NCBI RefSeq assembly: GCF_024213555.1
Contig: NZ_JANAVO010000012.1
Location: 1-64,000, forward strand
Reading direction: 5' to 3'
Source: Allokutzneria sp. A3M-2-11 16
GTDB lineage: Bacteria > Actinomycetota > Actinomycetes > Mycobacteriales > Pseudonocardiaceae
DNA: 64,000 bases
The translations under genes and the position numbers were made by a program. Of the stretch, positions 11,977 through 48,075 are shown piece after piece. Under the pieces are notes generated by a model that worked only from the letters and a program-made list of their open reading frames with translations, was not told the origin of the DNA and made no database searches. The stretch's first letter is position 1. Each line of letters begins with the position of its first letter.

Positions 11977-13113
11977 ATGCTTCCTGTAGATCCCGACCAT
12001 AAACTGATGGTCTACTTCACCGCGATGGGGAAAGCCTCGGCGGACTTCGCGGTCGTGCTGATGGAGTACGTCGCTCAGCTTGAACTATGTGATCGCGAGT
12101 TCGCCGAAGAAATCCTCATGCGACTACTCGTCATCTCCAAGACCAAGGCCGCCCGGCTCCTGCAACGCGCGGAAGACCTCACCGGTCGGCCTGTGGTGTT
12201 GCGGGCGCTGGCCGAAGGCCGTATCGACGAAGGCAAAGCGTTGATGATCGTCGACCTGCTCTCCACCCTGTCTGCTGTGCACGCCGCGATCGCCGAGCAG
12301 GACTTCCTCGCCTTCGCCGAGACCCACAACTACACCGCGACGCGGCGGCATGCGGTCCGGTTCATCGACAAGCTCGACCCGAAAGCCGCTGAACGCCGCC
12401 ACAAGGAGAAGCGCAAGCAGAGGTTGGTGGAGAAGATCCCCCAAGACGACGGCATGTGCCTGTTGCGCATGTTCTTCCCCGCTCTGCAAGCCTCCCTGAT
12501 CTACGACCGGATCGACCGGATCGCCAGAGCCTTGCCGAAGGATCACCGGACGTTGGATCAGAAACGGGCCGATGTCACCATGGATGTGTTGATGGGCAAG
12601 GAAACCGGCGCACCCCAAGGCCAGGTCACCGTCTACCTCACCATGCCCATGGGCTCCTTCCTCGGTCTCAGCAACGAGCCCGCGATCCTGCACGGCTACG
12701 GACCCCTGCCCGCCAAGATCGCCCGCGATGTCGCCGCGAACGGGATCTGGAAACGCATCCTCACCGACCCGGTCACCGGCATCGCCGAAGATGTCACCAC
12801 CTACCGGCCCTCAGCAAAGCAGCGGGAGTTGATCCACGCCCGCTACCCCACGTGCACCGCCATCGGCTGCAACAGGCCCGCACACCGCTGCGACCTGGAC
12901 CACTGCTGCCCCTTCGACGGCACCAACACGACGGTCGACAACTTGCGGCCGAAGTGCCGCAGGCACCACCGCATGAAGCACGAATCCAACTGGAAGTGCG
13001 AGAACCTGCCGGACGGTCGGCACGTCTGGACCACACCCAACGGCAAGACCGCCGAAACCGAAGCCGTGCCGATCGCCGAACCCGTGCTGATCGACGAGCC
13101 CGCGCCGTTCTAG
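11977..13113 (+). CDS. DUF222 / HNH endonuclease family protein (13E12 type), copy A
   Basis: A 378-residue protein with an N-terminal DUF222 helical region (about 25-250) and a C-terminal HNH nuclease domain (about 290-345). The HNH motif reads HRCDLDHCCPFDGTNTT, followed by NLRPKCRRHHRMKH, with paired cysteines (CTAIGC, KC) for zinc. It differs from copy B at 39020-40156 at roughly twenty residues. Such proteins are presumed DNA nicking or cleaving enzymes; in mycobacteria they form a repeated family of unproven function. The gene sits downstream of the hairpin leader and stops exactly where homology to copy B ends. Confidence 0.9.
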   Translation: MLPVDPDHKLMVYFTAMGKASADFAVVLMEYVAQLELCDREFAEEILMRLLVISKTKAARLLQRAEDLTGRPVVLRALAEGRIDEGKALMIVDLLSTLSAVHAAIAEQDFLAFAETHNYTATRRHAVRFIDKLDPKAAERRHKEKRKQRLVEKIPQDDGMCLLRMFFPALQASLIYDRIDRIARALPKDHRTLDQKRADVTMDVLMGKETGAPQGQVTVYLTMPMGSFLGLSNEPAILHGYGPLPAKIARDVAANGIWKRILTDPVTGIAEDVTTYRPSAKQRELIHARYPTCTAIGCNRPAHRCDLDHCCPFDGTNTTVDNLRPKCRRHHRMKHESNWKCENLPDGRHVWTTPNGKTAETEAVPIAEPVLIDEPAPF

Positions 13114-14930: not shown

Positions 14931-15686
14931 TCAGACGGAGTGCCACCACTTGGTGAACATCGGGTAGTCGTTCCACTCCAAGCGCAAAGGGCGTTCGGAG
15001 TGCTCGGTCATGAGGGCGGCGACGCAGTCGGTGAGCGCATTGTCGAGCACGTCGAAGGTGGCGGTGGGGACGGCGCTGCCGTAGGCGGGGAACACACGGA
15101 CCTGGCCGGGCGGGATCGTCGGGGCGTTCATGTCGTGCAGCAGCTTCCGCTGGAAGTCGTCGATCACCACGACGTCCACGATGCCCGGCCACGACCACAG
15201 GATCAGCCGGTTGACCTCGGTACCGGCCAGGATCAGGTGGTTGACCCGGTGCGGGGACACGATGTCATCGACGATCACGTCGACGGCGTGGATCCTGCTG
15301 TCCTCGGGGACCGAGGTTAGGTCGAGGATGTTCGGCCGGAACGGTGTTACGCATCGCGGCCACACGTGTTCGGAGGAGACCAAGCCGAGCATGTGCAGCG
15401 GGGACGGCACGCGTGCGGTCCACCTGTCGGACATCGCGGTGAGGACGATGGCGACGAGAGAGTCCCTCTGGTCACCCGGCGCGAGGACGACGAGTGCGCG
15501 TCCGGATCGGCCGTCCTCGTCCCACTCGATGTCGACGCGTCCCAGGGTGTCGTTCTGGCTGAGCACCGCCTCGTGGAGCTCGTAGTCCTGGGCCAGGGCG
15601 TGGTCCGCGATCTTCTGGAGCAACTCGGGCACCTGGCGCGGGTGGCGGTCGTGCATCAGGCCGGACTGCCAGTACCGGTAGGTCAT
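14931..15686 (-). CDS. Hypothetical protein (251 aa)
   Basis: It starts at ATG 15686, overlapping the stop of the PAP2 gene by ATGA, so it is translationally coupled to it. The N-terminal MTYRYWQSGLMHDRHPRQVPE is followed by a mixed alpha/beta protein without transmembrane segments. The C-terminal half (about 120-251, including LAGTEVNRLILWSWPGIVD and the ending FTKWWHSV) is also present as a degraded copy at 13114-13499. I do not recognise the family. The repeated loss and duplication of this gene and its neighbours marks the segment as unstable. Confidence 0.65.
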   Translation of the reverse strand: MTYRYWQSGLMHDRHPRQVPELLQKIADHALAQDYELHEAVLSQNDTLGRVDIEWDEDGRSGRALVVLAPGDQRDSLVAIVLTAMSDRWTARVPSPLHMLGLVSSEHVWPRCVTPFRPNILDLTSVPEDSRIHAVDVIVDDIVSPHRVNHLILAGTEVNRLILWSWPGIVDVVVIDDFQRKLLHDMNAPTIPPGQVRVFPAYGSAVPTATFDVLDNALTDCVAALMTEHSERPLRLEWNDYPMFTKWWHSV

Positions 15687-16333
15687 CGGGGCACTCCCAG
15701 GGCGCAGGTGCAGTCGGGGCCGGAGTCGCAGCCGCGGGTGGCGACGGCCGTGCGCCACGCGAGCACGGCGGCGGGGATCGCGGCGAGGACGTCGAGGGTG
15801 TAGTGGCAGTGCTGGACGAGTAGCGCGGGGATCATCACGGCCACGGTCGCGGCGCCCAGGCGGCGCAGCCACGGGCGGTCGGCGGCCAGGAACAACAGGG
15901 CCGCGGTGGCGGTGTGGCCGGAGAAGAACAGGTCGTGGTCGATGTACTGGCCGGGGCCGAGCACGAAGATCGGGTCGCGCAGCGGGATGATCCCGTCCGG
16001 GGGCTCCAGGGGGATCAGCGCGATGGTGACCATGCGGAACAACACCATCAGCCAGTACGCCCGCAGCGCGGTGACCAGGCGTTCCCGCTGGTTCCGGAGG
16101 GTGAACAGGACCGCGGCGAGCGAACCGTAGGTGAGCACGAAGATCGGCTCGGACAGGTCCGCGGCGGGCAGCAGGTCCAGCAGCGGGTCGGCGAGGCGGG
16201 TGCCGGGGCGGGCCTGCGCCCAGGTCAGGAACGCCGAACAGGCCGCGAGCACCGCGACCAGCATGGCCACCTCGACGGCGAGCCGCAGGGAGGTCAGCGG
16301 GCGACACCGCTCGAAGGTCTGGCTCGCGGTCAC
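15683..16333 (-). CDS. PAP2-superfamily membrane phosphatase / sphingomyelin-synthase-like protein
   Basis: A 216-residue integral membrane protein with about five or six hydrophobic segments. Near residue 135 it carries DHDLFFSGHTA, and about 40 residues later HCHYTLDVLAA. These are the conserved histidine motifs of PAP2 phosphatases, in the spacing typical of the sphingomyelin-synthase-like (PAP2_C) branch. It probably hydrolyses or transfers a phospholipid or prenyl-phosphate head group at the membrane. The start is GTG 16333. It overlaps the downstream hypothetical gene and lies 38 nt after the degenerate PKS gene on the same strand. Confidence 0.75.
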   Translation of the reverse strand: MTASQTFERCRPLTSLRLAVEVAMLVAVLAACSAFLTWAQARPGTRLADPLLDLLPAADLSEPIFVLTYGSLAAVLFTLRNQRERLVTALRAYWLMVLFRMVTIALIPLEPPDGIIPLRDPIFVLGPGQYIDHDLFFSGHTATAALLFLAADRPWLRRLGAATVAVMIPALLVQHCHYTLDVLAAIPAAVLAWRTAVATRGCDSGPDCTCALGVPR

Positions 16334-16371: not shown

Positions 16372-18912
16372 TCAGGCGCCCGCGATGCCGAAGCGGTTCG
16401 CCAGGTAGGCGGACAACGCGCCGGGGGAACCGTTCGTCCACAGTGGATGGTCGGGGATGAGCAGGCCGAGCGCCCGCTCCACCCGGAGCCGCAGTTCGGC
16501 GGCCACGGCCTCGTCGACGCCCAGCTCCAGCAGGGGGGTGCCGGAGTCGATCAGCACGCTCTCCGGGAGGCCGAGCACCGCGCGGAGGTGGCGGATCAGG
16601 TCGTGCTCCACGTCGGCGCGGGTCAGCGGATCGTGTTGCGCGCCGCGCGGTGCCTTCTGGCGGCCGGACAGCTGGACGTCCTTGATCACCAACAGCACGG
16701 TGCCCTCGCGGTCGGTGACGGTGACGGTGCCCGACAGCTCGGTCAGCTCGCATCGGCAGTACGTGGCGCGCCGGAGATCACCGTGCACCCGCAGCATCCC
16801 GGCCGACACCGGCAGCAGACCGGCCCCGAGCATGTGCAGGCAGGCGTCGAGCAGCACCGGGTGCACGACGAACCGGGTGGAAGCGCCGCGCACGGCCCGC
16901 GGCACGCGCACGCGGGCGAGGCCGGGGCCGAGGAGGCCGACGATCGCGGTGAACGCCGGGCCGTGGTGGATGCCGTGGCTGCGCGAGGTCTCATACAGCT
17001 CGGCGGGGTCGGTGGGCACGCCGTCGATCTCCACGGGCGGCTCCTGGCGGAACTCCACGTAGTGGCGGACGGCGGCCGTGGCGAGGCGGGTCCACTCGCT
17101 GCCCGCGCGGCCGAAGACCTCGATCTTCGCCCGCTCGTCGTCTGTCGGGGTGAGCTGCGTCGAGATCGTCGTGCGGCGCCCCAACTCGACCCGGTGGTGC
17201 AGCTCGACGCCACGCACCTCGACGGCGTGTGGAGGGCAGTCGAAGTGCTCGGTGGCCGCTGCGAGGACCATCTCGAAGTACGCGGCGCTGGTCAGGACCG
17301 GGACGTCGTCGATGCGGTGGTCGGCCAGCCACGGCAGCTCGGCGGTGCCGATCTCCGCCTGCCACACGCGCCTGCGGGTCGCGGGCACCTCGACGCGCGT
17401 GCCCAGCAGCGGATGCGCCTCCACCCGCGCGGGCGCGGGCGGGAACACCGTGCGGTCCCAAGCGGTCGGCGGCAGGTCGAGCAGTTCGCCGTGGGTGATC
17501 ACGGTGTCCACGCCGGGCGACTTCGGGCCCGCGCGCAGCGCCGCGACGAGCTGATCGATGTCGGAGGCGGTCACCACGGCCTGCACGGCGCGGGGCCGCC
17601 GCCGGGCGAGGGTGTAGGCGACATCTTGGAGGCAGCTGTCCGCGCCGTCGCCCTCCAACCAGTCGGCCAGCCGCGTCGCGGTCTCGGCGAGCGCGAGCGG
17701 TGTGCTCGCCGACAGGGGCACCACTACCCGGCTAGGCAATGGTTTGCGCGGCGTCGGGGTGCGCGGCGGGGCGGGTTCGAGCAGCACGTGCGCGTTGCCC
17801 CCGTGTTCGTCCATTGTGGACACTGCGGCGAGGCGGGCGGTGTCGGGCCACACGGTCGGCCTGGTGGGCACGGTCAGCCCGGTGTCCTCGGCGGACAGCG
17901 ACGGGTGCCACGCGGTGAAGTGCGGTGTCGGCGGGATGATCCCGGCGCGCACCGCGAGCACCGCCTTGATCAGCCCGGCCATCCCGGACACGGGACCGGT
18001 GTGCCCGAGGTTGGACTTCACCGCGCCGAGCGCGCACCGGTAGACCTTGCTGAGCGCGGTGAACTCGGCGGCGTCCTCGGCGAGCACCCCGCTGCCGTGC
18101 GTCTCCACGAACCCGACCTCGTCCCCGCGCGCCTCGGCGGCGGCGAGCGCCTGGCCGAACACGGTGGCCAGATCGCTGCGACCGATGGCGGAGGAACGGA
18201 TCACCGCGAGCACGCGGTCGTTGTCGTACAAGGCATCCGTGAGCCGCTTGAGCACGACGACGCCGCAGCCCTCGCTGCGCACGAAGCCGTCGGAGCGCGC
18301 CTCGAAGGCCCGGCAGCGGCCGGAGGTGGACAGGACTCCCTTGGTGGACAAGGAGATCGACTCCGCCGGGTCCAGCACGAGCGTGGCCGCGCCGACCAGG
18401 GCGACGTCGCAGTCGCGGGCCCGCAGGCTCGCCGAAGCCAGGTGCAGCGCGGCCAGCGCGGAGGAGTCCCCGGCGTCCACCGCGACGCTCGGGCCGGACA
18501 GGCCGAGCAGGGTCGCGATCCGCCCGGCGCCCGACCCGGTGGTGAACAGCCCGGCGTCGGCGTTGGGCAGTCCGGCGTGCTCCAGCGCCTCCACCGCGAC
18601 CTGCGCCAGCAGCCGGTCGCGCTGGTCGAACCCGGGGGTGCCGCCGAAGAACGCCGCGTCGAAGGCGTGCGGGTCGTGCAGGAACCCGCCCCACGAGGAC
18701 GACGTGCGGCCGGGCACCAGGGGTTCGGGATCGAAGAGCGCGTCGACGTCCCAGCGGTCGGCGGGGATCTCGGTGACCGCGTCGTGGCCCTCGACGAGCA
18801 GCCGCCAGTACGCCGAGGGCGAGTCGGCGCCGCCCGGCAGGCGGCAGCCGATGCCGAGCACCGCGAGGGGTTCGGCGGGCGGGAGTTCGGAGAGCGGTGC
18901 GGTGTGGTTCAC
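16372..18912 (-). CDS. Degenerate PKS-like protein KS-DH-ACP lacking AT and key catalytic residues
   Basis: An intact 846-residue frame from GTG 18912. The KS domain (about 12-385) keeps both histidines (VETHGSG, KSNLGHTG), but the nucleophile loop TACSS is AGDSS: Asp149 replaces cysteine (codon 18466-18468). The usual DPQQR is DQRDR. There is no AT. A short linker leads into a DH-like fold (about 495-735) in which HxxxGxxxxP has become HRIDDVPVLT, while DACLH is kept. The C-terminal ACP (about 760-846) has LGVDEAV: Glu801 replaces the phosphopantetheine serine (16510-16512). Every swinging-arm and acyl-binding nucleophile is gone, yet the frame is open. It lies beside the active PKS genes on the opposite strand. 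It may be a scaffold, a decoy or a regulatory PKS relative. Confidence 0.85.
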   Translation of the reverse strand: MNHTAPLSELPPAEPLAVLGIGCRLPGGADSPSAYWRLLVEGHDAVTEIPADRWDVDALFDPEPLVPGRTSSSWGGFLHDPHAFDAAFFGGTPGFDQRDRLLAQVAVEALEHAGLPNADAGLFTTGSGAGRIATLLGLSGPSVAVDAGDSSALAALHLASASLRARDCDVALVGAATLVLDPAESISLSTKGVLSTSGRCRAFEARSDGFVRSEGCGVVVLKRLTDALYDNDRVLAVIRSSAIGRSDLATVFGQALAAAEARGDEVGFVETHGSGVLAEDAAEFTALSKVYRCALGAVKSNLGHTGPVSGMAGLIKAVLAVRAGIIPPTPHFTAWHPSLSAEDTGLTVPTRPTVWPDTARLAAVSTMDEHGGNAHVLLEPAPPRTPTPRKPLPSRVVVPLSASTPLALAETATRLADWLEGDGADSCLQDVAYTLARRRPRAVQAVVTASDIDQLVAALRAGPKSPGVDTVITHGELLDLPPTAWDRTVFPPAPARVEAHPLLGTRVEVPATRRRVWQAEIGTAELPWLADHRIDDVPVLTSAAYFEMVLAAATEHFDCPPHAVEVRGVELHHRVELGRRTTISTQLTPTDDERAKIEVFGRAGSEWTRLATAAVRHYVEFRQEPPVEIDGVPTDPAELYETSRSHGIHHGPAFTAIVGLLGPGLARVRVPRAVRGASTRFVVHPVLLDACLHMLGAGLLPVSAGMLRVHGDLRRATYCRCELTELSGTVTVTDREGTVLLVIKDVQLSGRQKAPRGAQHDPLTRADVEHDLIRHLRAVLGLPESVLIDSGTPLLELGVDEAVAAELRLRVERALGLLIPDHPLWTNGSPGALSAYLANRFGIAGA

Positions 18913-19184: not shown

Positions 19185-19910
19185 ATGATCATGGAATTCG
19201 GCTCCGGTTGGGACAGCGCGGCCACCCTCGTCGACGGCCGCTGGGTCGAGCGCAGGCCGCGCCGCCCGGAGGTGGCGCCCCGGCTCCTCGCGGAGGCCCG
19301 CCTCCTGTCGTGGCTGGCGCCCCTGCTGCCGCTGCCCGTGCCCCGGCCGGTGATCTTCAGCGCGGAGCCGTTGGTGCTGCGGCACGAACTCGTGCCCGGC
19401 GAGCCCGCCGAGCGACTGGCCGCCGTCGACGGGCGCGTGCTCGGCCGGTTCCTGCGCGCCCTGCACGACGTCGACCCCGTCGAACCCGTGCACGAGGCCG
19501 ATCTGGGTGAGCTGGACCGGTTTCGCGAGGAGGTGGTCCCGCTGCTGCCAGACTGCCCGCGCGCGACCGCCCTTCTCGACGAGTTTCGGTCTGTGTCGAA
19601 GGATTGCCTGGTGCACGGCGACCTGGGGCCGGAACACGTCTTGTGCCGGGACGGTGCTGTCAGCGGGGTGATCGACTGGACGGACGCGCACCTCGGCGAC
19701 CCGGCGATCGACCTCGCGTGGGCGCTGTTCGGCACCCCGCCCGAGTTCGCCCACGCGCTGGCGGAAACCTATGGGGTGTCAGGGAAACTGCGGCGGCGCG
19801 CGCTCCTGTGGCATCGGCTCGGGCCGTGGTACGAGGTGACCCACGGCCTCGACACCGGGCGGCCCGAGCTGGTGCGCGACGGCATCGCCGGGATCGTCTC
19901 CCGGCTCTGA
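19185..19910 (+). CDS. Aminoglycoside phosphotransferase-family kinase
   Basis: A 241-residue APH/choline-kinase-fold protein. The catalytic loop is LVHGDLGPEHVL, with His where the usual Asn sits. The metal-binding segment is VIDWTDAHLGDPAIDLAW. GAGG lies about 9 nt before ATG 19185. It is divergent from the degenerate PKS gene and 111 nt upstream of the first large PKS gene. In this position it may phosphorylate the cluster product, as a self-resistance step like macrolide phosphotransferases, or phosphorylate a biosynthetic intermediate. The family is secure; the role is inferred. Confidence 0.82.
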   Translation: MIMEFGSGWDSAATLVDGRWVERRPRRPEVAPRLLAEARLLSWLAPLLPLPVPRPVIFSAEPLVLRHELVPGEPAERLAAVDGRVLGRFLRALHDVDPVEPVHEADLGELDRFREEVVPLLPDCPRATALLDEFRSVSKDCLVHGDLGPEHVLCRDGAVSGVIDWTDAHLGDPAIDLAWALFGTPPEFAHALAETYGVSGKLRRRALLWHRLGPWYEVTHGLDTGRPELVRDGIAGIVSRL

Positions 19911-20021
19911 CCCACCGCACGTTCACTCGTTCAGCGGCGGTTTTCTCTGGCCTATGCCCATGTACGGTCCCCGGGGGGCGGATCCACGGGTACCGAACGC
20001 ACTAGCGCATGAGGTGTGGCC

Positions 20022-23000
20022 ATGGATCTGTCGTCCGCCGCTGTCGAAGAGTGGATCGTCGGCCGCGTCGCCGCGCTGTGCGGTGGCGAGGTCGGACCGA
20101 ACGATCCGTTCACGCGGCACGGGATGGACTCCCGGGGGCTCACCGGTCTGACCGCGGAGTTGGGCGAGCTGCTCGGCCGCGCGGTGTCGGCCACCCTCGT
20201 CTGGACCCACCCGACGCCGCGCGAGCTGGCCAGGCACCTCGCCGACCCCGAGCCCGCGCGTGCTGAGCTGCCGGTTTTCCGGACCGCTGAGCCGATCGCG
20301 ATCGTGGGGCTCGCCTGCCGACTACCCGGCGGGGCGAGCCCGGAGGAGTTCTGGCGGCTGCTCCGCGAAGGACGCGACGCCGTCGTGGACGCGCCCGCCG
20401 CGCGCGGCACGACCGGCAGGGGCGGGTTCCTCGACCGGATCGACGAGTTCGACGCCGCGTTCTTCGACATCTCCCCGCGCGAGGCGGCGCACGTGGACCC
20501 GCAGCAGCGGCTCGCCCTGGAGCTGGCGTGGGAAGCGCTGGAGAACGCGGGCATCCCGCCGCGCGGGCTCGCGGGCGGGCGGACCGGTGTCTTCGTCGGC
20601 GCGATGTGGGGCGAGTACAGCGCCGCGCCCGACCAGCTCGGCCAGCATTCCCTGGCGGGCACCGATCCGAGCGTGATCCCGGCGCGGATCTCCTACGCGC
20701 TCGGGCTGCGCGGGCCGAGCCTCCAGGTCAATACCGCGTGCTCGTCGTCGCTGGTCGCGGTCCACCTCGCCGCGCAGAGCCTGCGGGAGGGCGACTGCGA
20801 TCTCGCGCTCGTCGGCGGGGTGAGCCTGATGCTCGACCCCACGACCGGCGTCGCGCTGCGGGAACTCGGCGCGCTCGCCCCGGACGGCCGCTCGAAGGCG
20901 TTCGACGCGCGCGCTGACGGGTACGGGCGCGGCGAGGGCGGCGGGTTCGTGGTGCTCAAACGGCTGAGCGAGGCCACGGGGGACCGCGTGCTGGCCGTGA
21001 TCCGGGGCAGCGCGGTCAACAACGACGGCGCGAGCAACGGTCTCACCGCCCCGAACCCCTTGGCGCAGCAGGAGGTTCTGCGCAGCGCCTATCAGCGCGC
21101 GGGGATCAGTCCGGCGGACGTGCAGTACGTGGAGGCGCACGGGACTGGCACCGAGCTGGGCGATCCGATCGAGGCCAGCGCGCTGAACGCGGTGCTGTGC
21201 GTCGATCGGCCCGCGGAGAAGCCGTTGCGGATCGGCTCGGTGAAGTCCAGCATCGGCCACCTTGAGGCGGCTGCCGGGATGGCGGGACTGATCAAGGTCG
21301 TGCTGGCGATGCGGCACCGTGCGCTCCCGCCGAGCCTGGCCTTCGAGGAGCCCAACCCGCACATCCCGTTCGAGGACTGGCGACTGCGGGTGCAGCAGGA
21401 TCTCACTGAGTGGACCGATGAGCGCCTCCTCGCCGGGGTGAGCGCTTTCGGCTTCGGCGGCACCAACTGCCACGTCGTCCTTGAAGGCGGTCCTTCACCG
21501 GAGCCGCGAGTGTCCGCGGGTGAGGCGGTGTTCGTCTTCGGCGGTCAGGGTTCGCAGTGGCCGGGCATGGCCGCCGACCTGCTGCGCGACGAACCTGTGT
21601 TCCGGCGGGCGTTCGAGCGTTGCGACGCGGTGATCGCGCCGAGGATCGGGCGCTCGCTCACCACGTTGCTGGACGACGACTGGCTGACCGACACCGCCAT
21701 CGCGCAGCCCGCGATCTTCGCCATGCAGGTCGCGCTCGTGGAACTGCTGCGCTCGCGCGGTGTCGAGCCGGTCGCGGTCACGGGCAGCAGCATGGGCGAG
21801 GTCGCGGCGGCCTGGACGGCGGGCGCGCTGGACCTGGAGACGGCGGCGGTGCTGATGTGCGAGCGCAGCCGGATCGCGAGCGGGCTCAGCGGCTCCGGGG
21901 CGATGGCCGCGCTGGAACTGCCCGAAGCGGACGTGGCGGACCTGGTGCGGGGCAAGGACGTGTGGACCGCCGGGGTCGCGGGTCCGCGCTCGACGGTGAT
22001 CTCCGGAGACGCGGCGGCCGTGCGGCAGGTGATGGACGCTGCCGTCCGATCTGGGCGGATTCGGGTGGATTACGCGTCCCACAGCCCTTATGTGGAGCCG
22101 ATCTTGCCCTCGTTGCGAGCAGCGCTCGCCGGAATCCAGGGCAGCACGTGCCGAATCCCGTTCTATTCGGCGGTGACCGGGGGTGAGCTGCCCGGCGAGG
22201 CACTGGACGCGGAGCACTGGGTGCGCACCGAGCGCGATCCGTGGCGGCTGTCGTCGGCGCTGGAGGCGTTGCTCGCGAACGGGCACACCGTGTTCGTCGA
22301 TGTGAACCCGCACGCTGTTCTCGTTGAGCCGCTTGAACAAGTCATCGCCGACTCAGGGAAGGCCGCCGTCGCGGTGGCCGCGTTGCGGCGGGGGACCACC
22401 GTGCCCAGGGGGTCTCGGCAACAGTTGCTCTTCCTTTCGGCCAGGACCGAAGATGCACTGCGGCGGGCCGCCTTCGATGTGGCAGAGTGGTTGATGGCAA
22501 ACAACAATTCCGCCCCGAACGACGTTTGCCACACGCTCTCGGCACGGCGTAGCCACCACGAGTTCCGGCTGTCCGTCGCCGGGGACACGCACGCCGCGAT
22601 GGCCGATGCCCTGCGCACGGCCGAGTTCTCCCGCGCTTGGGCGGACGACGCGGTGTTCGTCTTCTCCGGGCAAGGCACGCAGTGGAGTGGGATGGGTCGC
22701 GCGCTGCTCGAACGAGAACCGGCGTTCCGCGCCGCCGTCGAGTCCTGCGACGACCTGTTCGCGCCCATGGCGGGCTGGTCCCTGATCGATGCCGTGAACG
22801 GCGAGCTGACCGACACCGATGTCATCCAGCCGGTGCTCTTCGCGATTCAGGTCGGACTGGTCGAGTTGTTGCGGGAACACGGCATCAGCCCGGCTGCGGT
22901 GATCGGGCACAGCGTCGGAGAGGTGGCCGCGGCCTACGCTGCCGGGGTGCTTCGCTTGGAGGAGGCGGTTCGCGTCGTCTACCACCGCGGGCGCTTGATG

Positions 23001-26000
23001 CGTCGCACTGCCGGGCTGGGCCGCATGGTGTCGGTGGCCATGTCGGAGGAAACCGCGCGGGAGCTGCCCGAGGTGCGTGCGGGCCGGGTGGACATCGCCG
23101 CCGTCAACGATCCCAGTTCCGTTGTGCTCGCGGGTGACGTGAGTGGACTCGGCGGGCGGGAACTCCGCGTCGACTACGCATTCCACAGCCGCCACATGGA
23201 TTCGATCCTGGATGAGCTGGCCGAAGCGCTCAGCGACCTTTCCCCGCAGCCGCCGACGATTCCGGTCTACAGTTCCGGAGATCGGTTCGACGCCGAGCAC
23301 TGGGTGCGCAATGTCCGTGACACCGTTCGGTTCGCGGACCATGTGAGTGAGGCGGTCTCGGCGGAGCATCGGCTGTATGTGGAGATCGGGCCGCATCCGG
23401 CACTCGTGGACAACATCGAGGAATGTGTTGCCGCCGAAGGACAGTACGGGCGAGCGGTTGGTGTTCTCCGCCGTGGCGAAGACACTGTGCTCCGGGCTTT
23501 GGGTGACCTGTACCGACATGGCCTCGACGTGTCCTTTGTAGACGGATCATTGATCGATCTGCCGGGATATCCGTGGCAGCGGGAGCGGTACTGGCACTCC
23601 GGCGCGCATGCTCGCGATGACCGCTTGCACACCCTTGAGTGGCGGCGGCGTGAACACCACGAGCCGGTCACCTCCGTTTCTGGGACTTGGTTGGTGCTGC
23701 GCGATGAACTCGGGGTCGGCGCGGCGGTGGCGGAGCGGCTGCGTTCGTACGGCGCGGAGTGCGTGGATTCGGTGGCAGCGCTGACCGCGGCGCCTGCGGG
23801 GGTGGTGTGGCCGTACGGTGCGCATGTCGACGTCGAGGAGCTGCGTGGGTGGCGGGATCTGCCGCGGTTATGGCTGGTCACGCGTGATCATCGGCAGGCG
23901 TCGTTGTGGGGCCTGGGGAAGTCGCTCGCGTTGCGGCATCCCGAGTTCGACTGGGCTCGCGTTGAATTCAGCGATGTTGATCTGCTCGTGCGAGAGCTGG
24001 CTGCGGACTCCGATGAGACCGACGTGGAGTTGCGGTCGGATGGTCGTTACGTGGCAAGGGTTGTGCGCGCCGCCGATGCCGTGGGACGCGATGGCGGTCT
24101 GACGTTCCGCGACAACGGGACGTATCTGGTGGTCGACGCTTCCCTTGAAGTGCCGCGGGGGCAGGTCGTCGGCTCGTATGGCGGCGAGCGGCTGAGCGGC
24201 ATCGTGTACGGCGGTGGGCAGGCTGATGTCGCGTGGCAGCTGCACGAGCTGTCGCTTGAGCACGATCTCGACTTCTTCGTGCTGTTGTCGTCGGGTGCCT
24301 CGCTGCTCGGTGATGGGCCGGACGCGGAGAGCGGGGCTGTCTTCGACGCGATCGCGCGGCACCGACGAGAACTGGGGCTGCCCGCGTTCAGCGTCGGTGG
24401 TGATCACCGTGTGCTGAGCGGTGTCCTCCCGTCCGCCCCGGCCCAGCTCACGGTTGTGGACCTCGATGTGCGGCAGTGGTTGGAGGTGCATCCGGCTGCT
24501 GCGGGAACACCGCTGCTGTCGGAGCTTCCCAGGGACACGGTGCGCGGGCCGAGCCTGGATCTCCGCACGGTCACGCCGAGGCTGCTGGAGGAGCACCTGG
24601 TCGAGCAGCTGGCCAGGACGCTGCACCAGGAACCGTCCACTGTGGATGTGTCGACGCCGTTCCGCAGCCTCGGGCTGGAGTCGCTGATGGCGGTGGAGCT
24701 GCGCAACCGCCTGGAGAACAGCATCGGTGTGCGGTTGTCCGTCGCGCTGTTGTTCACCTACTCCACCGTGTCCGAGCTGGCCGAGTACCTCTTGGCCGAA
24801 CGCTCGGGCGAGAGTGTTCCGGAGCAGCGGCGGGACACGACGACGGAGCCGATCGCCATCGTCGGGATGGGCTTGCGGGTGCCGGGCGGAGCCGATGACC
24901 CGGAGTCGTTCTGGCGCCTGCTCGAAGACCGGGTGGACGCCGTGACCGAGGTCCCGGAGCACCGTTGGCCGCGTTCCGAGGGGCCCGCGGGCTGGGGCGG
25001 ATTCCTGTCCGAGGTGGACGGTTTCGACGCCGAGTTCTTCGGGATCTCACCCCGGGAGGCCAAGAGCCTCGACCCGCAACAGCGCCTGCTGCTCGAAGTC
25101 ACCTGGGAGGCGCTGGAGCGCGCGGGCACGCCGCCGGAAGGGCTGACCGGGTCGAGCACCGGGGTGTTCGTCGGCATGGTGGTCAACGATTACGACAAGC
25201 TCAACGCGGAGCGGGACATCTACACCGTGACGGGCAACGGGCACTCCTTCCCCGCGGGGCGGCTGTCCTACCAGCTCGGCGCGCAGGGCCCGAGCATGAC
25301 TGTGGACACCGCCTGTTCGTCCTCGCTCGTCGCCATCCACCTCGCCTGCCAGAGCTTGCGCGCGGGGGAGAGCACGCTCGCGCTCGCGGGTGGCGTGAAC
25401 CTGATGCTCGATCCCGACATGTCCGACATGCTCGCCGGGTCGAACGCGTTGTCCCCGGACGGCCGGTGCCGTACCTTCGACTCCCGCGCGAACGGATACG
25501 TGCGCGGCGAGGGCTGCGGAATGCTTGTGCTGAAACGGCTTTCCGACGCCGAGGCTGACGGCGATCCCGTGCTCGCCCTGATCCGGGGCTCGGCGGTGAA
25601 CTCCGACGGACGGTCTTCCGGTCTGACCGCGCCGAACGTCACCGCGCAGAAGGCGGTGCTGCGTCAGGCATTGCGGAACGCGGGCGCCGAGGCGAGCGAG
25701 ATCGGCTACGTGGAGACGCACGGCACGGGCACTCCGCTTGGCGATCCGATCGAGGTGACCGCCCTCGCCGACGTCCTCGACGGTGATCGCTGCGTGCTCG
25801 GTGCTGTCAAGACCAACATCGGCCACCTGGAGTCGGCGGCCGGGGTCGTGGGTGTGATCAAGACCGTGCTGGTGATGCAGCGGGAACGCATTCCGGCCAA
25901 CCTGCACATGCGCACGCTCAACCCGCGTATCGACCTGACCGGGACGCCGCTGGAGATCGCTTCCGAGCCCGTGGAATGGCGACCGGGCAAGCTCGCCGGG

Positions 26001-28349
26001 GTCAGCTCGTTCGGCATCAGCGGCACCAATGCGCACGTCATCCTGGCTGAGCCACCCCGGCTGCCCGAACCCGAGGTCGATGGCCCGGCGCTGCTGCCGA
26101 TCTCGGCGCGCACGGAGCCCGCACTGCGTGCTCTCGCGGCGTCCTATGTGGACTTTGCCCTCGGCGGGTTGGCGGACATGGCGTACACGGCGGCCTTCCG
26201 GCGTCACCACCACCCGCACAGGGCTGTGTTCGTCGCGGACTCTGTTCAGGACTTGGAGGCGAAGGCCCAGGCGTTCGCTCGCGGAGAGGCACCTGCCGGA
26301 GTGGTGAGCGGGCGAGCTTCCGGGAGGCCCAAGGTGGTCTTCGTCTTTCCCGGGCAGGGTTCGCAGTGGGTGGGCATGGGACGCGATCTTTATGCGGCTC
26401 AACCGGCATTCGCGGAGGCGCTTCGCAGGTGTGATGAGGCGATCCACGCGGAGGCGGGGTGGTCGGTGATCGACGTGCTGCACGCGGAGACAACGGACAA
26501 CCTCGGTCAGGTCGGCGTGATCCAGCCGGTGTTGTTCGCGATGGAGGTCGCGCTCGCCGAACTGTGGCGGGAGTACGGTGTCAGCCCGGATGTCGTGGTC
26601 GGGCACAGCATGGGCGAAGTGGCCGCGGCGCACATCGCCGGATCACTGTCCCTTGTGGACGCTGTGAAGGTGATCTGCCGACGCAGCAGGCTGTTGGATC
26701 GGATCAGCGGGCAAGGCGCGATGGCGCTGGTCGAACTGTCGCTCAGTGAAACCGAAGCCGCACTGTCCACTGTGTCCGCTGAGGTCTCGGTCGCCGCCGC
26801 CAACGGGCCGCGCTCGACGATCATCTCCGGTACCGCGACGGTGGTGGACAGCGTGTTGCTGCGGCTGACCGAGGCGGGAGTGTTCTGCCGCAGGGTTCGG
26901 GTCGAGGTCGCCTCGCACAGCCCTCAGGTGGACCAGCTCACGGCTGACCTCCTGGACGTGCTCAAGGACATTTCCCCTGTTCCCGGTTCGATTCCGCTCC
27001 GCTCCACGGTGACCGGCGAGGCGGTCGACGGCGCGGGCATGGATGCGAAGTACTGGGTGCGCAACCTCCGCGCGCCCGTGCTCTTCGGGCCAGTCGTCGA
27101 GGAACTGCTGAACGACGGGCCAACAGTGTTCGTTGAGGTCAGCCCGCATCCGGTGCTGCTGCCGTCCATTGACGAAGTGTTGACCGAGGGCAGTGCCACG
27201 GTCGCTTCGCTGCGCCGGGACCGCCCGGTTTTCCTTGAAGCAGTCGGTGCGGTGCACGTCCACGGCGTCCCGGTGCGGTGGGCCGAAGCCGGGCGATGCG
27301 TTGCGCTGCCGACGTATCCGTGGCAGCGCTCGCGGTATTGGGCTGACCCGGCTCCTCGTGGGAGACGCACCGGTGGGCATCCGTTGCTCGGTGAGGCGGT
27401 GGAGCTGGCGACGCAGCCAGGTGTGCGGGTGTTCAGCGGCAGGCTGGACGCGGCGTACTTGGCAGATCATCGAGTGCACGGGCGCGCGGTGCTGCCAGGA
27501 GCGGCAAGCGTCGAGATGGTGTTGTACGCCACGCAGTCCAAGACGTTGGTGGACATTGACTTCGAGCGCCTGGTGGGCGACCAGCCGGAGGTGCAGCTCG
27601 TCCTGTCGGGAGAAGGGTTCGAGCTGTTCTCCCGCTCGGAGGCCGGGTGGCAGCGCTTCGCGTCGGGCGAGGTCGGCGTCTCCGGTGAGCCAGTGCGGGC
27701 AAGCCTGCCGAGTTTGCCCATCGAGGTCTCGGTCGCTGATCACTACCGGGAGCAGGCGGAGAAGGGCGTCGAGTACGGCCCCGCTTTCCAAGGCGTCCAA
27801 CGACTGTGGATCGGCGAAGGTGAGGCTGTCGCGCGGGTCGCCGCGACCGGTGGTGGTCACGTCTTCCATCCGGCGTTGCTCGACACGCGTGCTTCCAAGT
27901 CTACGGCGCGCTCGTCGGCGGCTCCACGGCGCTCGTTCCCGTTGGAGTGGAACGGATATCCCTGCATCGACGTCCGCCGAACCAACTATGGGTGCACGCT
28001 CGCGCCACCGGTGACCTCGTGGTGTTCGACGACGAGGAGCACGTCATCGCGGAGATCACAGGTCTGCGGGCGCGGGACCTGCCCGCGCGCAAGCCCTATG
28101 AGGACTGGCTCTACGAGATCAGCTGGCGGCACGCCGAGGCCCTGGAAGCCACGGAGCCGACCGGCAAGTGGCTGGTTCTCGCCGATCACGGCGGTGTCGG
28201 CGCTCAGCTCGCACAACGGTTGCCGGATGCCGTGGTGGCGTACGCGAGTGACGGGCTCGTTGACGACGCCGACTGGGACCGGTTGCTCGACTCCGTGCCG
28301 GACTGCACCGGGATCGTGCACATGTGGGGCGTCGACGCTCTTGAAGTGA
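20022..28349 (+). CDS. Type I modular PKS, ACP-KS-AT-AT-(KR remnant)-ACP-KS-AT-DH, frameshifted in DH
   Basis: ATG 20022 follows GAGG. Domains: ACP 1-75 (HGMDSRGL); KS 85-500 with Cys240; AT 502-800 (GSSMG, Ser590; YASH); a second AT 877-1170 (GHSVG, Ser964; YAFH); a shrunken KR-like region about 1190-1480 without GGLGGLG or the catalytic Tyr; ACP with Ser1554; KS 1608-2020 with Cys1765; AT 2105-2410 (GHSMG, Ser2196; VASH, methylmalonyl-type); DH from 2452 with [10 protein letters not shown]. At 27885-27886 two extra bases (AC) shift the frame inside the second DH motif; removing them restores LLDACFQVYG and joins the frame ending at 29779. Residues from 2622 to the nominal stop at 28349 are therefore out of frame. 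There is no loading AT, so the starter must be supplied in trans or by the N-terminal ACP. Confidence 0.9.
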
Positions 28350-29779
28350 CCACTGTGGACAGTCTCGCGGCGGACCAGTGGCTGACCACGTTCAGCGCTC
28401 TGCGGTTGGTGCGTGCGGTGCTGCGACGCGGGCTCCGGGATACGCCGCGGCTGTGGTTCGTGACCAAGGGCGCGCTGTCCACCTCACCGCTGTCGGGCTT
28501 CGGCCGGACCTTGGACATGGAGCACCCCGAGTTCCGTTCCGTGCGCGTCGAGTTGAACGGGAGCGTGGACGACCTCCTGCCGGAACTGCTGGCGCCGGAC
28601 GGGGAGAACGAGATCGCGCTCGGGCTGTCGGGGCGCCGCGTCGCTCGTCTGACCAGGCGTGAGGTCGGCACGCCTGGCGAGGTCGACTGGAGTGGGACGT
28701 ATCTGATCACTGGTGGTCTTGGCGGCCTGGGCATCGGGATCGCGGAGTGGATGGCTGAACAGGGAGCGCGGCACATCGTGCTGCTCGGCCGGACCGAGCG
28801 ATCGTTGGAAGCTGTGGATGCTTTGCGCGCCAAGGGGGTTGAGGTCGTTGTCGCACAAGCGGACGTGACGCTCCGCGCGGACGTCGCTCGGGTGCTCGCG
28901 GACATTGACCGGCGGATGCCGCCGCTCAAGGGCGTCGTGCACGCGGCGATGGTGCTGGATGACCGCACGATTCTCGATCTCGACGAGGAGCGGTTCGAGC
29001 GAGTGCTGGCGCCTAAAGTGCTGGGCGCGTGGAACCTGCACGAGCTGACCGGCGACCTGGACTTCTTCGTGCTCTACTCCTCGGCGTCCAACATCATCGG
29101 ATCGCCAGGACAGGCGAACTACGCCGCCGCGAACGCGTTCCTCGGCGCGCTCGCTCGGTATCGCACCGCGCTCGGGAAGCCCGCGCTGTGCATTGACTGG
29201 GGGTTGTTCGCCGAGGCCGGGATCATGGCGGATCGCGCGGCGGAGGGCAACCGCCTTGCCGACCGCGGCATCGGCACGCTCACCCCGGAGCAGGGCACGG
29301 AGATCCTTGGCGCGCTGCTCGGCTCCGATGTCGCGCACATCGCCGCCCTCCGGCTGAACTTGCGGCAGTGGCTGGAGTTCTTCCCTGGTGCGGCGGCGAA
29401 TCCGCTGTTCGCCGAGCTGCATGACCGGGAGGAGCCGGTCGAGGCGATGGAGGTCGACGCCGAGTCGGTGGAACCGTTGGTGCGCGACCAGCTCGGGCGG
29501 ATCTTGCACCTCGACCCCGCTCGGATCGATCGGGCAGCGCCGTTCACCAGCATGGGCGTGGACTCGTTGATGGCGCTGGAGCTGCGCAACCGGCTCGAAG
29601 CGGCGCTGGGCGTGCGCCTGTCGGTGACCGTGCTCTTCGCCGCGCCCACCGTCGCCGCGCTGGCCGAGTACTTGATCGACAAGCTCGGTCTCGTTGATGA
29701 GTACGCGGATGTCAGTACCGAGGATCTGCTCGCCCTGCTTGACGAATCGCTCGACCGTGTGGAAGGGGGAAGTGAGTGA
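27947..29779 (+). CDS. PKS continuation: DH end, KR, ACP (downstream of frameshift)
   Basis: This frame continues the second module of the preceding PKS. Homology is already present from 27887 ([12 protein letters not shown]), upstream of the nominal GTG 27947. It contains an active-looking KR: LITGGLGGLGIG, an LDD motif in HAAMVLDDRTI (B-type, D-hydroxyl), YSSASN, and catalytic Tyr in NYAAANAF. An ACP follows with GVDSLMALEL. A C-terminal tail (STEDLLALLDESLDRV) resembles an inter-protein docking helix. GTG of the next PKS overlaps its stop. If the frameshift is real, this part needs separate initiation or recoding to be made; otherwise the two frames are one protein of about 3250 residues. 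Confidence 0.85.
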   Translation: MERISLHRRPPNQLWVHARATGDLVVFDDEEHVIAEITGLRARDLPARKPYEDWLYEISWRHAEALEATEPTGKWLVLADHGGVGAQLAQRLPDAVVAYASDGLVDDADWDRLLDSVPDCTGIVHMWGVDALEVTTVDSLAADQWLTTFSALRLVRAVLRRGLRDTPRLWFVTKGALSTSPLSGFGRTLDMEHPEFRSVRVELNGSVDDLLPELLAPDGENEIALGLSGRRVARLTRREVGTPGEVDWSGTYLITGGLGGLGIGIAEWMAEQGARHIVLLGRTERSLEAVDALRAKGVEVVVAQADVTLRADVARVLADIDRRMPPLKGVVHAAMVLDDRTILDLDEERFERVLAPKVLGAWNLHELTGDLDFFVLYSSASNIIGSPGQANYAAANAFLGALARYRTALGKPALCIDWGLFAEAGIMADRAAEGNRLADRGIGTLTPEQGTEILGALLGSDVAHIAALRLNLRQWLEFFPGAAANPLFAELHDREEPVEAMEVDAESVEPLVRDQLGRILHLDPARIDRAAPFTSMGVDSLMALELRNRLEAALGVRLSVTVLFAAPTVAALAEYLIDKLGLVDEYADVSTEDLLALLDESLDRVEGGSE

Positions 29780-32607
29780 GCGAGGAGAAGTACCGTGCCA
29801 GCCTGGTCCGCGCGGCCGCTGCGATCAAGGACCTGGAGGGGCGGTTGGAGCAGGTGCGCCGGGAGCGCACCGAGCCGATCGCGGTCGTGGGCATGGGCTG
29901 CCGCTTCCCTGGTGACGCCGACGATCCCGAGGCGTTCTGGCGGATGCTGCGCGACGGCGTCGACGCGGTCACCGAGATCCCCTACGAGCGGATCGACCGG
30001 AGAGGGCGGGACGAGCCCGCCTCCGACGCGGGGCGCTGGGGCGCGTTCCTGTCCGATGTGGACGGATTCGACGCGGACTTCTTCGGTGTTCCGCCGCGTG
30101 AGGCCGCGCGCATGGACCCGCAGCACCGCATGGTGCTCGAAGTGGCATGGGATGCCTTGGCGCACGCCGGAATCGTGCCCAGCTCGCTGGCAGGGAGCGC
30201 GACCGGTGTGTTCGTCGGCATGTCCGGCAACGACTATCTCCTGCTGAGTTCCGGCGGGCAGGCGCGGGATGCCCACGTCGGCACCGGGACCGCCCACAGC
30301 TTCGGCCCTGGCAGGTTGTCACACCTCCTCGGATTGCGCGGTCCGAACATGGCGGTGGACACGGCGTGCTCGTCCTCGCTGGTGTCGGTGCACCTGGCGA
30401 TGCAGAGCCTGCGCAGCGGTGAGAGTTCGCTCGCGTTGGCGGGTGGCGTGAACCTCGTGCTGTCGCAGGAGAGCACCGAGACGGTCGCCGACCTCGACGC
30501 GCTGTCGCCGGACGGGCGGTGCCGGAGCTTCGACGCGCGGGCCAACGGGTTCGTGCGCGGAGAGGGCTGCGGGATCGTCGTGTTGAAGCGACTCTCCGAC
30601 GCCGAGGCGGACGGAGATCGGGTACTCGCCGTGCTCCGGGGCGCGGCGGTCAACTCCGATGGGCACTCCGCCGGGCTCACCGCGCCGAACCAGCTCGCAC
30701 AGCGCGACATGCTGCGGCAGGCGTACGCCGACGCGGGTGTGTCCACAAAGGACATCGGCTACATCGAGACGCACGGAACCGGGACTCCGCTCGGCGATCC
30801 GATCGAGTTCGAGGCGTTGGCGGGGGTGGTGGACGGCGAACGGTGCGTGCTCGGCGCGGTGAAGACCAACATCGGCCACCTTGAGGCGGCGGCCGGGATC
30901 GCCGGGCTCATCAAGGTGATCCAGTCGCTGCGGCACGAGAGCATTCCGGGCAACCTCCACTTCACCACGCTCAACCCGCGGATGCGGCTCGCGGGGACAC
31001 CGTTCGTACTGCCGACGTTGCCAGTGCCGTGGCCACGGTCGGAGCGCCCGCGCATCGCCGGGGTCAGCTCGTTCGGGATGAGCGGGACCAACGCCCACAT
31101 CGTGGTCGAGGAGGCGCCTCCGGCTTCCGTCACGGCGGTCGGACCGGCGATCGTGACGATCTCCGCGCGCACCGAACCGGCTCTGCGCGAGCTGATCGCG
31201 GCCTATCGCGGGCTCGATGCGCGCGAGGTCGCTTACACCGCCGCGTTGCGCCGTCAGCACTACGAGTACCGGGCCGCGTTCGTGGACGGCTCGGAGCCGG
31301 GCATCCACCGCGCGGTCGAGAACCCCGGGCCGTTGACGTTCGTGTTCTCCGGTCAGGGCTCGCAATGGGTTGGCATGGGCCGGGAGCTCGTTGATCATCC
31401 GGTTTTCGCGGAGTGCGCCGCGCTCGCGCCGTTCGATCTGCGTGCCGAGCTGGACGGGACGCGGCTCCACGACACGTCGGTCGTCCAGCCGTTGATCTTC
31501 GCTGTGCAGGCCACGTTGGTCGCTCGGCTCGCGTCGTGGGGGATCACGCCGGAAGCCGTGATCGGCCACAGCATCGGCGAGGTGGCCGCGGCGTACGCGG
31601 CCGGGGCTCTGACGTTGTCCGATGCGATGCGGCTCGCGGTGACTCGTGGCCGGATCATGAGCCGTGCCAGCACTTCTGGTCGGATGACCGCCGTTCGCGC
31701 TACGCCTGGAGCCGTTCGCGTGCACGGTGCTGTCTCGATCGCTGCGGTCAACGACAGCGGGTCCGTCGTGCTCGCCGGGCCGGAGCGCGAGCTGGACGAG
31801 GCGGTGGCGCGCATCGGTGGGCGGGCGCGGAAGCTCGATGTGCGCTATGCCTTCCACTCGCCGGAGATGGCGCCGCTGGCCGATTCGCTGGAGCGCGAGT
31901 TGGTGGGACTTGAAGACGCCCCGACCACCGTGCCGATGTTCAGTTCGGTCACCGGCAAGGCGATCACGGAGCTGGGGCCGCGGTACTGGGCGGCCAATGT
32001 GCGCGAACCCGTGCTCTTCGCCGATGCGGTCGGCTCGGCGATCGAGGCCGGTTCGCGGATCTTCCTGGAGATCGGGCCGCACCCGGTGCTGATCGGGCAC
32101 GTGCGACAGGGTTTGACCGACCACGCGGTGGACGGCGCGGTGATCCCCACGCTCCGGCGGGACGGGGCGGAACTCCTCGACGCGGTGGGCGGTCTGTACA
32201 CCAGCGGCTACGACGTCGACTTCGCCAAGATCGTGCCGAAGGGAGCGGTGGTCACGTTGCCGCGCTATCCCTGGCAGCACCGGTCGTACTGGCTGGACTC
32301 GGCCTCGGAGCGGACGGCGCAGCCGAACTGGCTCGACCAGATCAACGCGCTCGCCCCGGAGGAACGCGTCGCGGCCGTGGAGCTGGCGGTGCGCGCGGAC
32401 GTGGCCACCGTGCTCCGACTGTCCTCTGTGGACGAAGTGCCGGTGGACGGGCCGTTGATGGAACTCGGCGTGGACTCGCTGATGGCCGTTCAGGTGCGGC
32501 ACGAGCTGTCCGCACGGACCGGGGCGGCCCTGCCGGCCATGCTCGCTTTCGATCACCCGACACCCAGGGCGATCGCGCGGTACCTACTAGAGATGGGAAG
32601 CGAATGA
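29776..32607 (+). CDS. Type I PKS, docking-KS-AT-ACP
   Basis: A 943-residue single module. The N-terminal 32 residues (EEKYRASLVRAAAAIKDLEG) form a coiled-coil docking domain that should pair with the tail of the preceding PKS. The KS has Cys198 in [17 protein letters not shown] and [12 protein letters not shown]. The AT has GHSIG (Ser599) and YAFH, a signature between the malonyl HAFH and methylmalonyl YASH types, so the extender is uncertain. The ACP carries Ser901 in GVDSLMAVQV. There are no reductive domains and no thioesterase, so release must be done by another protein. GTG 29776 overlaps the upstream stop; the GST-like gene overlaps its end by ATGA. Confidence 0.9.
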   Translation: MSEEKYRASLVRAAAAIKDLEGRLEQVRRERTEPIAVVGMGCRFPGDADDPEAFWRMLRDGVDAVTEIPYERIDRRGRDEPASDAGRWGAFLSDVDGFDADFFGVPPREAARMDPQHRMVLEVAWDALAHAGIVPSSLAGSATGVFVGMSGNDYLLLSSGGQARDAHVGTGTAHSFGPGRLSHLLGLRGPNMAVDTACSSSLVSVHLAMQSLRSGESSLALAGGVNLVLSQESTETVADLDALSPDGRCRSFDARANGFVRGEGCGIVVLKRLSDAEADGDRVLAVLRGAAVNSDGHSAGLTAPNQLAQRDMLRQAYADAGVSTKDIGYIETHGTGTPLGDPIEFEALAGVVDGERCVLGAVKTNIGHLEAAAGIAGLIKVIQSLRHESIPGNLHFTTLNPRMRLAGTPFVLPTLPVPWPRSERPRIAGVSSFGMSGTNAHIVVEEAPPASVTAVGPAIVTISARTEPALRELIAAYRGLDAREVAYTAALRRQHYEYRAAFVDGSEPGIHRAVENPGPLTFVFSGQGSQWVGMGRELVDHPVFAECAALAPFDLRAELDGTRLHDTSVVQPLIFAVQATLVARLASWGITPEAVIGHSIGEVAAAYAAGALTLSDAMRLAVTRGRIMSRASTSGRMTAVRATPGAVRVHGAVSIAAVNDSGSVVLAGPERELDEAVARIGGRARKLDVRYAFHSPEMAPLADSLERELVGLEDAPTTVPMFSSVTGKAITELGPRYWAANVREPVLFADAVGSAIEAGSRIFLEIGPHPVLIGHVRQGLTDHAVDGAVIPTLRRDGAELLDAVGGLYTSGYDVDFAKIVPKGAVVTLPRYPWQHRSYWLDSASERTAQPNWLDQINALAPEERVAAVELAVRADVATVLRLSSVDEVPVDGPLMELGVDSLMAVQVRHELSARTGAALPAMLAFDHPTPRAIARYLLEMGSE

Positions 32608-39019: not shown

Positions 39020-40156
39020 ATGTTCCCTGTAGATCCCGACCATAAACTGATGGTCTCCTTCACCGCGATGGGGAAAGCGTCGGCGGACTTCGCGGTCGTG
39101 TTGATGGAGTATGTCGCTGAGCTTGAACTATGTGATCGTGAGTTCGCCGAAGAAACCCTCATGCGACTACTAGCGGTCTCGAAGACGAAGGCCGCCCGGC
39201 TCCTGCAACGCGCGGAAGACCTGACCGGTCGGCCTGTGGTGTTGCGGGCGCTGGCCGAAGGCCGCGTCGACGAGGGCAAAGCGTTGATGATCGTGGACCT
39301 GCTCTCCACCCTATCTGCGGTGCATGCCGCGATCGCTGAGCAGGACTTCCTCGCCTTCGCCGAGACCCACAACTACACCGCGACTCGTCGGCATGCGGTG
39401 CGGTTCATCACCAAGCTGGACCCGAAGGCCGCCGAGCGCAGGCACCGGGAGAAGCGGAAGCAGAGGTTGGTGGAGAAGATCCCCCAAGACGACGGCATGT
39501 GCCTGCTGCGCATGTTCTTCCCCGCCCTGCAAGCCTCCCTGATCTACGACCGCATCGACCGCATCGCCAGAGCCCTACCCAAGGATCACCGCACCTTGGA
39601 TCAGAAACGGGCCGATGTCACCATGGATGTGTTGATGGGTAAGGAAACCGGTGCACCCCAAGGCCAGGTGACCGTCTACCTCACCATGCCCATGGGCTCG
39701 TTCCTGGGCATGAGCAACGAGCCCGCCATCCTCCACGGTCACGGACCACTGCCCGCGAAGATCGCCCGAGATGTCGCGGCGGGAGGGATCTGGAAACGCA
39801 TCCTCACCGACCCGGTCACCGGGATCGCCGAGGACGTCACCACCTACCGGCCCTCAGCCAAGCAGCGTGAGTTGATCCACGCCCGCTACCCCACCTGCAC
39901 CGCCATCGGCTGCAACAGGCCCGCCCACCGCTGCGATCTGGATCACTGTTGCCCCTTCGACGGCACCAACACCACCATCGACAACCTCCGGCCGAAATGC
40001 AGGCGCCACCACCGGATGAAGCACGAATCCAACTGGAGCTGCGAAAACCTGCCGGACGGGCGGCACGTGTGGACGACACCGAACGGGAAGACCTCGGAGA
40101 CGGAAGCGGAGCCGATCGCGGAACCGGCACCGTTCGACGAGCCCGCGCCGTTCTAG
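39020..40156 (+). CDS. DUF222 / HNH endonuclease family protein (13E12 type), copy B
   Basis: A 378-residue sister of the protein at 11977-13113, with the same DUF222 region and the same HNH core (HRCDLDHCCPFDGTNTT, KCRRHHRMKH). Differences are scattered (for example Y13S, Q33E, I46T, N251G) and mostly conservative, and no stop or indel has arisen. Both copies therefore look functional and recently related. The hairpin leader and dyad precede it as in copy A. Confidence 0.9.
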   Translation: MFPVDPDHKLMVSFTAMGKASADFAVVLMEYVAELELCDREFAEETLMRLLAVSKTKAARLLQRAEDLTGRPVVLRALAEGRVDEGKALMIVDLLSTLSAVHAAIAEQDFLAFAETHNYTATRRHAVRFITKLDPKAAERRHREKRKQRLVEKIPQDDGMCLLRMFFPALQASLIYDRIDRIARALPKDHRTLDQKRADVTMDVLMGKETGAPQGQVTVYLTMPMGSFLGMSNEPAILHGHGPLPAKIARDVAAGGIWKRILTDPVTGIAEDVTTYRPSAKQRELIHARYPTCTAIGCNRPAHRCDLDHCCPFDGTNTTIDNLRPKCRRHHRMKHESNWSCENLPDGRHVWTTPNGKTSETEAEPIAEPAPFDEPAPF

Positions 40157-48020: not shown

Positions 48021-48045
48021 CGGAGGTCCTTCACAACACGTCCGT

Positions 48046-48075
48046 CACAGTTTCTTTTCCAATGGATAAACTGTG
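48046..48075. promoter_or_regulatory. Candidate TetR operator
   Basis: CACAGTTT (48046-48053) and AAACTGTG (48068-48075) form a perfect 8-bp dyad with a 14-nt spacer. It sits in the 52-nt gap between the divergent esterase and TetR genes and covers the TetR start region, which fits autorepression together with control of the esterase. Confidence 0.6.

Follow-up and report, generated by a model that had tools for sequence, protein, structure and literature searches.

A gene related to MAS-type polyketide synthases, lacking the condensing cysteine and the carrier serine and retaining a dehydratase His/Asp dyad, is kept by purifying selection in Allokutzneria

In the KSQ loading domains of polyketide synthases (PKSs) the nucleophile of the ketosynthase (KS) is replaced by Gln and both histidines are kept, and the domain is paired with an AT and a functional ACP. 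The chain-length factor (KS-beta) of type II systems forms a heterodimer with an active KS. A different case is the KS0 of the mupirocin protein MmpE, which, according to the available part of PMC7619045, accepts the chain, loses all product on C215A exchange, and is followed by a functional ACP. Pseudoenzymes at large are portrayed, in the accessible portions of PMC5106787 and PMC10211241, as proteins whose catalytic residues have been lost and whose fold has been retained. For mycocerosic acid synthase (MAS), the text of PMC12370991, so far as it is available, gives residue 177 as the KS Cys, 929 as the DH His and 2060 as the crosslinked ACP Ser, and places a dimer-interface loop at residues 127-130. 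In the titles and abstract openings of the open-licence papers that a search brought up, no description was found of a protein whose KS has Cys changed to Asp and whose ACP has Ser changed to Glu.

This combination is encoded in the window, the whole 64,000-nucleotide stretch of Allokutzneria DNA analysed here, by a gene at 16372-18912 on the minus strand that is open for 846 codons from a GTG start, with a third-position G+C content of 0.94. At E <= 0.001 the protein gave Pfam matches to a ketosynthase, a PKS dehydratase (DH) and a phosphopantetheine-type (PP-binding) domain and none to an AT, ER or KR, and the AT columns of the alignment are empty in all three orthologues, those of the window's own genome (G000), of G002 (92% identity) and of G001 (85%). 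Among solved structures MAS was the top match by sequence (E 1.9e-123), and residue numbering was transferred by sequence alignment of the 846-aa protein to it. The pseudo-ketosynthase domain (residues 13-385; 17758-18876) has lost internal loops; at about residue 468 (17509-17511) comes the approximate junction where the AT of relatives is missing and the post-AT linker begins, then the dehydratase domain (residues 491-750; 16663-17442), and lastly an ACP-like domain (residues 771-840; 16393-16602), which in relatives is preceded by an ER and a KR, both missing here. Asp149 (18466-18468) stands at the KS nucleophile position, aligned with MAS Cys177, and Glu801 (16510-16512) at the phosphopantetheine serine position, aligned with MAS Ser2060; both residues are common to all three genomes of the genus. 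An earlier, sequence-only reading of this DNA had proposed an intact frame with high-GC codon use, an absent AT and acidic residues in place of the KS nucleophile and the ACP serine, and all of this is borne out.

The KS resembles a KSQ domain in having its nucleophile replaced while both histidines, His272 (18097-18099) and His304 (18001-18003), are kept. It is unlike one in bearing Asp and not Gln, in the absence of an AT, in an ACP without its serine, in the missing loops and the attached DH, and in clustering with MAS-type KSs. A KSQ-type decarboxylase is ruled out by the Asp for Gln, the missing AT and the loop losses, and the same reading had likewise held the two apart. The protein shares with the trans-AT KS0 of MmpE, as the available part of PMC7619045 depicts it, the retention of a non-elongating KS, but has neither the nucleophile Cys, which is Asp, nor the ACP serine. 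Alignment with MAS-type relatives shows the KS to be shortened by about 4, 30-32, 3, 9 and up to 8 residues, with the FGxxGTN loop also gone; the largest gap corresponds to MAS residues 118-153 and so spans the dimer-interface loop of MAS.

Several lines of evidence bear on where the gene came from. In a KS tree built from the best 70 of 110 KS rows, the bootstrap of which was not fully settled, the three orthologues and five MAS-type KSs form an eight-row clade (support 99/93, stem 1.17), and immediately outside it branches a group (11 rows, 97/90) that holds the KSs of the PKS encoded alongside. The best ten DH matches from outside the genus in the family search all lie inside open reading frames of 2,057-2,468 aa. 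Judged from these comparisons, the gene derives from an iterative PKS of the MAS type (KS-AT-DH-ER-KR-ACP) that has shed its AT, ER and KR. The protein is like MAS and the MAS-type single-module PKSs in its top structural match, its KS clade, its KS-DH-ACP order and its DH His/Asp dyad, and unlike them in being an 846-aa protein without the full architecture, with Asp for Cys177, Glu for Ser2060 and KS loops missing. Direct descent from the adjacent PKS was considered and rejected: its two KSs scored 288-291 bits (40-41% identity), as against 352-379 bits (42-48%) for the five MAS-type KSs with which the pseudo-KS branches. Rates for the lineage that leads to the genus, computed on a fixed topology and relative to eight intact MAS-type relatives, were 1.39 for the KS (5-95% range 1.16-1.65), 1.01 for the DH (0.78-1.29) and 0.71 for the ACP (0.44-1.12), which is not faster; the KS rate exceeded the DH rate in 98% of bootstrap comparisons. 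The DH stem leading to the genus measures about 0.94 substitutions per site.

The protein had also been called catalytically empty, with the HxxxGxxxxP motif of its DH destroyed, and this view is not supported. The catalytic His532 (17317-17319; MAS His929) and Asp689 (16846-16848; DxxxQ/H) of the DH are present in all three genomes. The Gly of HxxxG, which is Asp in the window and Gly in G001, is likewise missing from six of the ten MAS-type relatives aligned, and the one real departure from the motif is P541T, at a proline found in all ten of these relatives and replaced in all three orthologues. Whether the DH has been kept better than the KS depends on the cut-off. Among columns invariant in 20 relatives, those retained by all three orthologues number 11/11 in the DH and 48/72 in the KS (Fisher p 0.029); with the same relatives the figures are 21/23 and 86/135 at a 90% conservation cut (p 0.008), and 26/37 and 119/187 at 80% (p 0.57). 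With the ten MAS-type relatives alone, two cuts gave 26/33 against 80/123 (p 0.15) and 33/44 against 112/181 (p 0.12). The difference is significant in two of five cuts, and better retention of the DH is suggestive, not proven. There are only three orthologues, which also makes the conservation of any one residue across the genus weak evidence.

The gene is stop-free and intact in all three genomes of the genus, and no match reaching 1e-90 was found in the other 57 of 60 genomes searched. A DH-ACP query recovered an orthologue in 3 of 297 genomes from the family, 2 of 298 from the order and 1 of 394 from the class, the last being that of the window itself; the samples overlap, and every one of these genomes belongs to this genus; the remaining matches at 1e-25 (69 and 28 genomes) have at most 44% identity and usually lie in much longer PKS frames. 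A scan of 84,980 species genomes, made with exact peptide patterns that could miss distant orthologues, returned 33 loci. Both substitutions occur in just one of these, L011, which is G001; L043 covers residues 14-93 only, and in the other 31, where up to three residues per frame were printed for the nucleophile site, all are Cys except three Gln. Homologues sharing the Cys-to-Asp and Ser-to-Glu changes do exist, all those found being within the genus, to which the gene is apparently restricted.

Pairwise dN/dS (Nei-Gojobori) was 0.224 between the window and G002, 0.250 between the window and G001 and 0.246 between G002 and G001; by domain it was 0.21-0.28 in the KS, DH and ACP, and 0.04-0.40 in two short linkers. 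The pseudo-PKS falls inside the range of 11 neighbouring genes (0.07-0.30), which include a PAP2 gene (0.29-0.30), an APH gene (0.20-0.29), an S9 peptidase gene (0.20-0.25) and the gene for a 943-aa PKS (0.14). No stop codon was seen where a rough calculation that assumes equal rates of change would expect about 10 (G002) and 18 (G001) under neutral change, and the indels among orthologues are all in frame, a KS loop near residue 126 differing in length between them. The gene is kept by purifying selection. This agrees with the sequence-only reading, which had argued for selection and against decay; dN/dS is not near 1, and a young pseudogene is ruled out, as far as three genomes allow, by the intact copies, the low dN/dS, the lack of stops and the in-frame indels. 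Purifying selection on the gene favours no single function.

The same reading had tied the role of the gene to the PKS operon beside it. The segment bearing this operon (PKS, GST, P450; 19896-35082, plus strand), some 15 kb in length, adjoins the gene in the window and in G002. The G001 alignment spans the pseudo-PKS and the APH gene and resumes at the S9 peptidase gene after 23 bases, the segment being absent from the locus. Elsewhere in G001, an assembly of 480 contigs with a listed completeness of 95%, a search with the operon's 943-aa PKS and its GST found no near copy of the former (48% identity for the match with the best E-value, 55% for one match confined to the KS) and, at 1e-20, nothing for the latter, while G002 has the GST at 95%. 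Because G001 keeps the gene intact without the operon at the locus, the gene is not tied to the operon, which we read as lying outside the system; the gene does not always sit beside this PKS, one genome of the three providing the exception. The operon had further been described as active and devoid of a thioesterase. No thioesterase match was indeed found in the operon proteins scanned, but the large PKS is a single 3,276-aa frame in G002 and in the window is split near 27.9 kb, inside its DH, into frames at 20016-28349 and 27947-29779, so that it is either broken by a frameshift or misassembled. The supposedly active neighbour is thus the one that is broken (or misassembled) in the window, and the supposedly dead gene is the one that is intact.

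Two neighbours do accompany the gene in each of the three genomes: a PAP2_C (sphingomyelin-synthase-like) gene (15683-16333, minus strand), lying 38 bp downstream, and a divergent APH-family gene (19185-19910, plus strand); S9 and GNAT genes follow farther on. The 38-bp spacing leads us to infer that the pseudo-PKS and PAP2_C genes are co-transcribed. The PAP2_C protein contains FSGHT and HYTLDV stretches, which we take to resemble sphingomyelin-synthase motifs, and the position of its gene downstream of the pseudo-PKS suggests that the pathway concerns lipids or the cell envelope. Matches to PAP2 turned up in this genus alone, in 3 genomes out of 150 sampled from the family (cut-off 1e-12) and in 1 out of 394 from the class (1e-10); in 62 relative loci, many of them short, no homologue was found at 1e-5 of PAP2, two small downstream frames, APH or S9. 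In the window, about 30 kb separates the pseudo-PKS from an esterase gene and its neighbour (47166-48628 in the window, 12738-14500 in L044); in G002 the distance is about 2 kb, and the displacement is a local rearrangement. Two DUF222 genes (11977-13113 and 39020-40156) flank the pseudo-PKS/PKS region, and G001 and G002 also have related frames close to the locus; these genes perhaps mark a rearranging segment. At 55650-63998 a large frame encoding an NRPS, with matches to condensation and AMP-binding domains, runs off the window.

The explanation that we tentatively prefer, at a little less than an even chance, is that the protein is a synthase retired from chain building. Its KS core would stay as a dimer scaffold, and its ACP, having lost the serine, would no longer carry a chain. 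Its DH, probably still active, would be the working part, dehydrating or hydrating a beta-hydroxyacyl or enoyl thioester held on CoA or another carrier, or alternatively binding such an acyl chain. It would act apart from the adjacent PKS; the pathway, shared with the PAP2 enzyme, would probably concern lipids or the cell envelope. In this respect it would differ from pseudoenzymes in general, as the accessible portions of PMC5106787 and PMC10211241 present them, since its DH may remain active. Against this explanation stand the P541T change, the cut-off-dependence of DH retention over the KS and a dN/dS that is equally low in the KS and ACP. All three observations sit comfortably with a wholly non-catalytic pseudoenzyme, a KS-DH dimer serving as scaffold, sensor or decoy in which the DH dyad is kept for structure or by history. 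A KS and an ACP constrained as tightly as the DH are what would be expected of such a scaffold, and the loss of both condensing and carrier functions points the same way. However, a pure scaffold should have no need of the catalytic His and Asp that have survived this DH stem of about 0.94 substitutions per site, and with the proposed partner PKS absent in G001 some other partner would be required. We regard a non-catalytic role as the main rival, a real possibility that falls short of being likely.

Two further accounts carry much less weight. That the gene is an old truncated PKS, slowly decaying and open by chance, would fit the somewhat accelerated KS on the stem, the variable KS loop length near residue 126 and a dN/dS against G002 that exceeds the value for the neighbouring gene of the 943-aa PKS (0.22 as against 0.14). 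It is made quite unlikely by the dN/dS of 0.22-0.25, the absence of the expected stops, the confinement of indels to those in frame and the similar dN/dS of the APH, S9 and GNAT neighbours. An accessory subunit of the adjacent PKS (20016-32607), whether chain-length factor, docking factor or in-trans DH, might be supposed from the position of the gene next to that PKS in the window and G002, and from the KS tree, where the KSs of that PKS branch immediately outside the clade of the three orthologues. It is very improbable: the gene is intact in G001 where the operon is absent from the locus, with neither a near copy of the 943-aa PKS nor a GST match elsewhere, which led us to reject a helper of this PKS, and the PKS carries a DH of its own and has a broken frame in the window.

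A more speculative elaboration, improbable as it stands, is that Asp149, His272 and His304 could form a 2-His-1-carboxylate metal or ligand site in the former KS pocket, on the loop-stripped KS dimer. Alongside an active DH and an 'ACP' that no longer carries, this pocket would serve a lipid pathway specific to the genus, in partnership with the sphingomyelin-synthase-like enzyme; were this so, a PKS would have been turned into a protein of a new kind. On the preferred explanation, of a synthase withdrawn from chain building around a probably live DH, a multidomain PKS has apparently been retired and yet kept by selection, and if so it would show how assembly-line parts can find new uses. It also carries a caution, that a 'dead' PKS gene lying next to a PKS cluster may not belong to that cluster.
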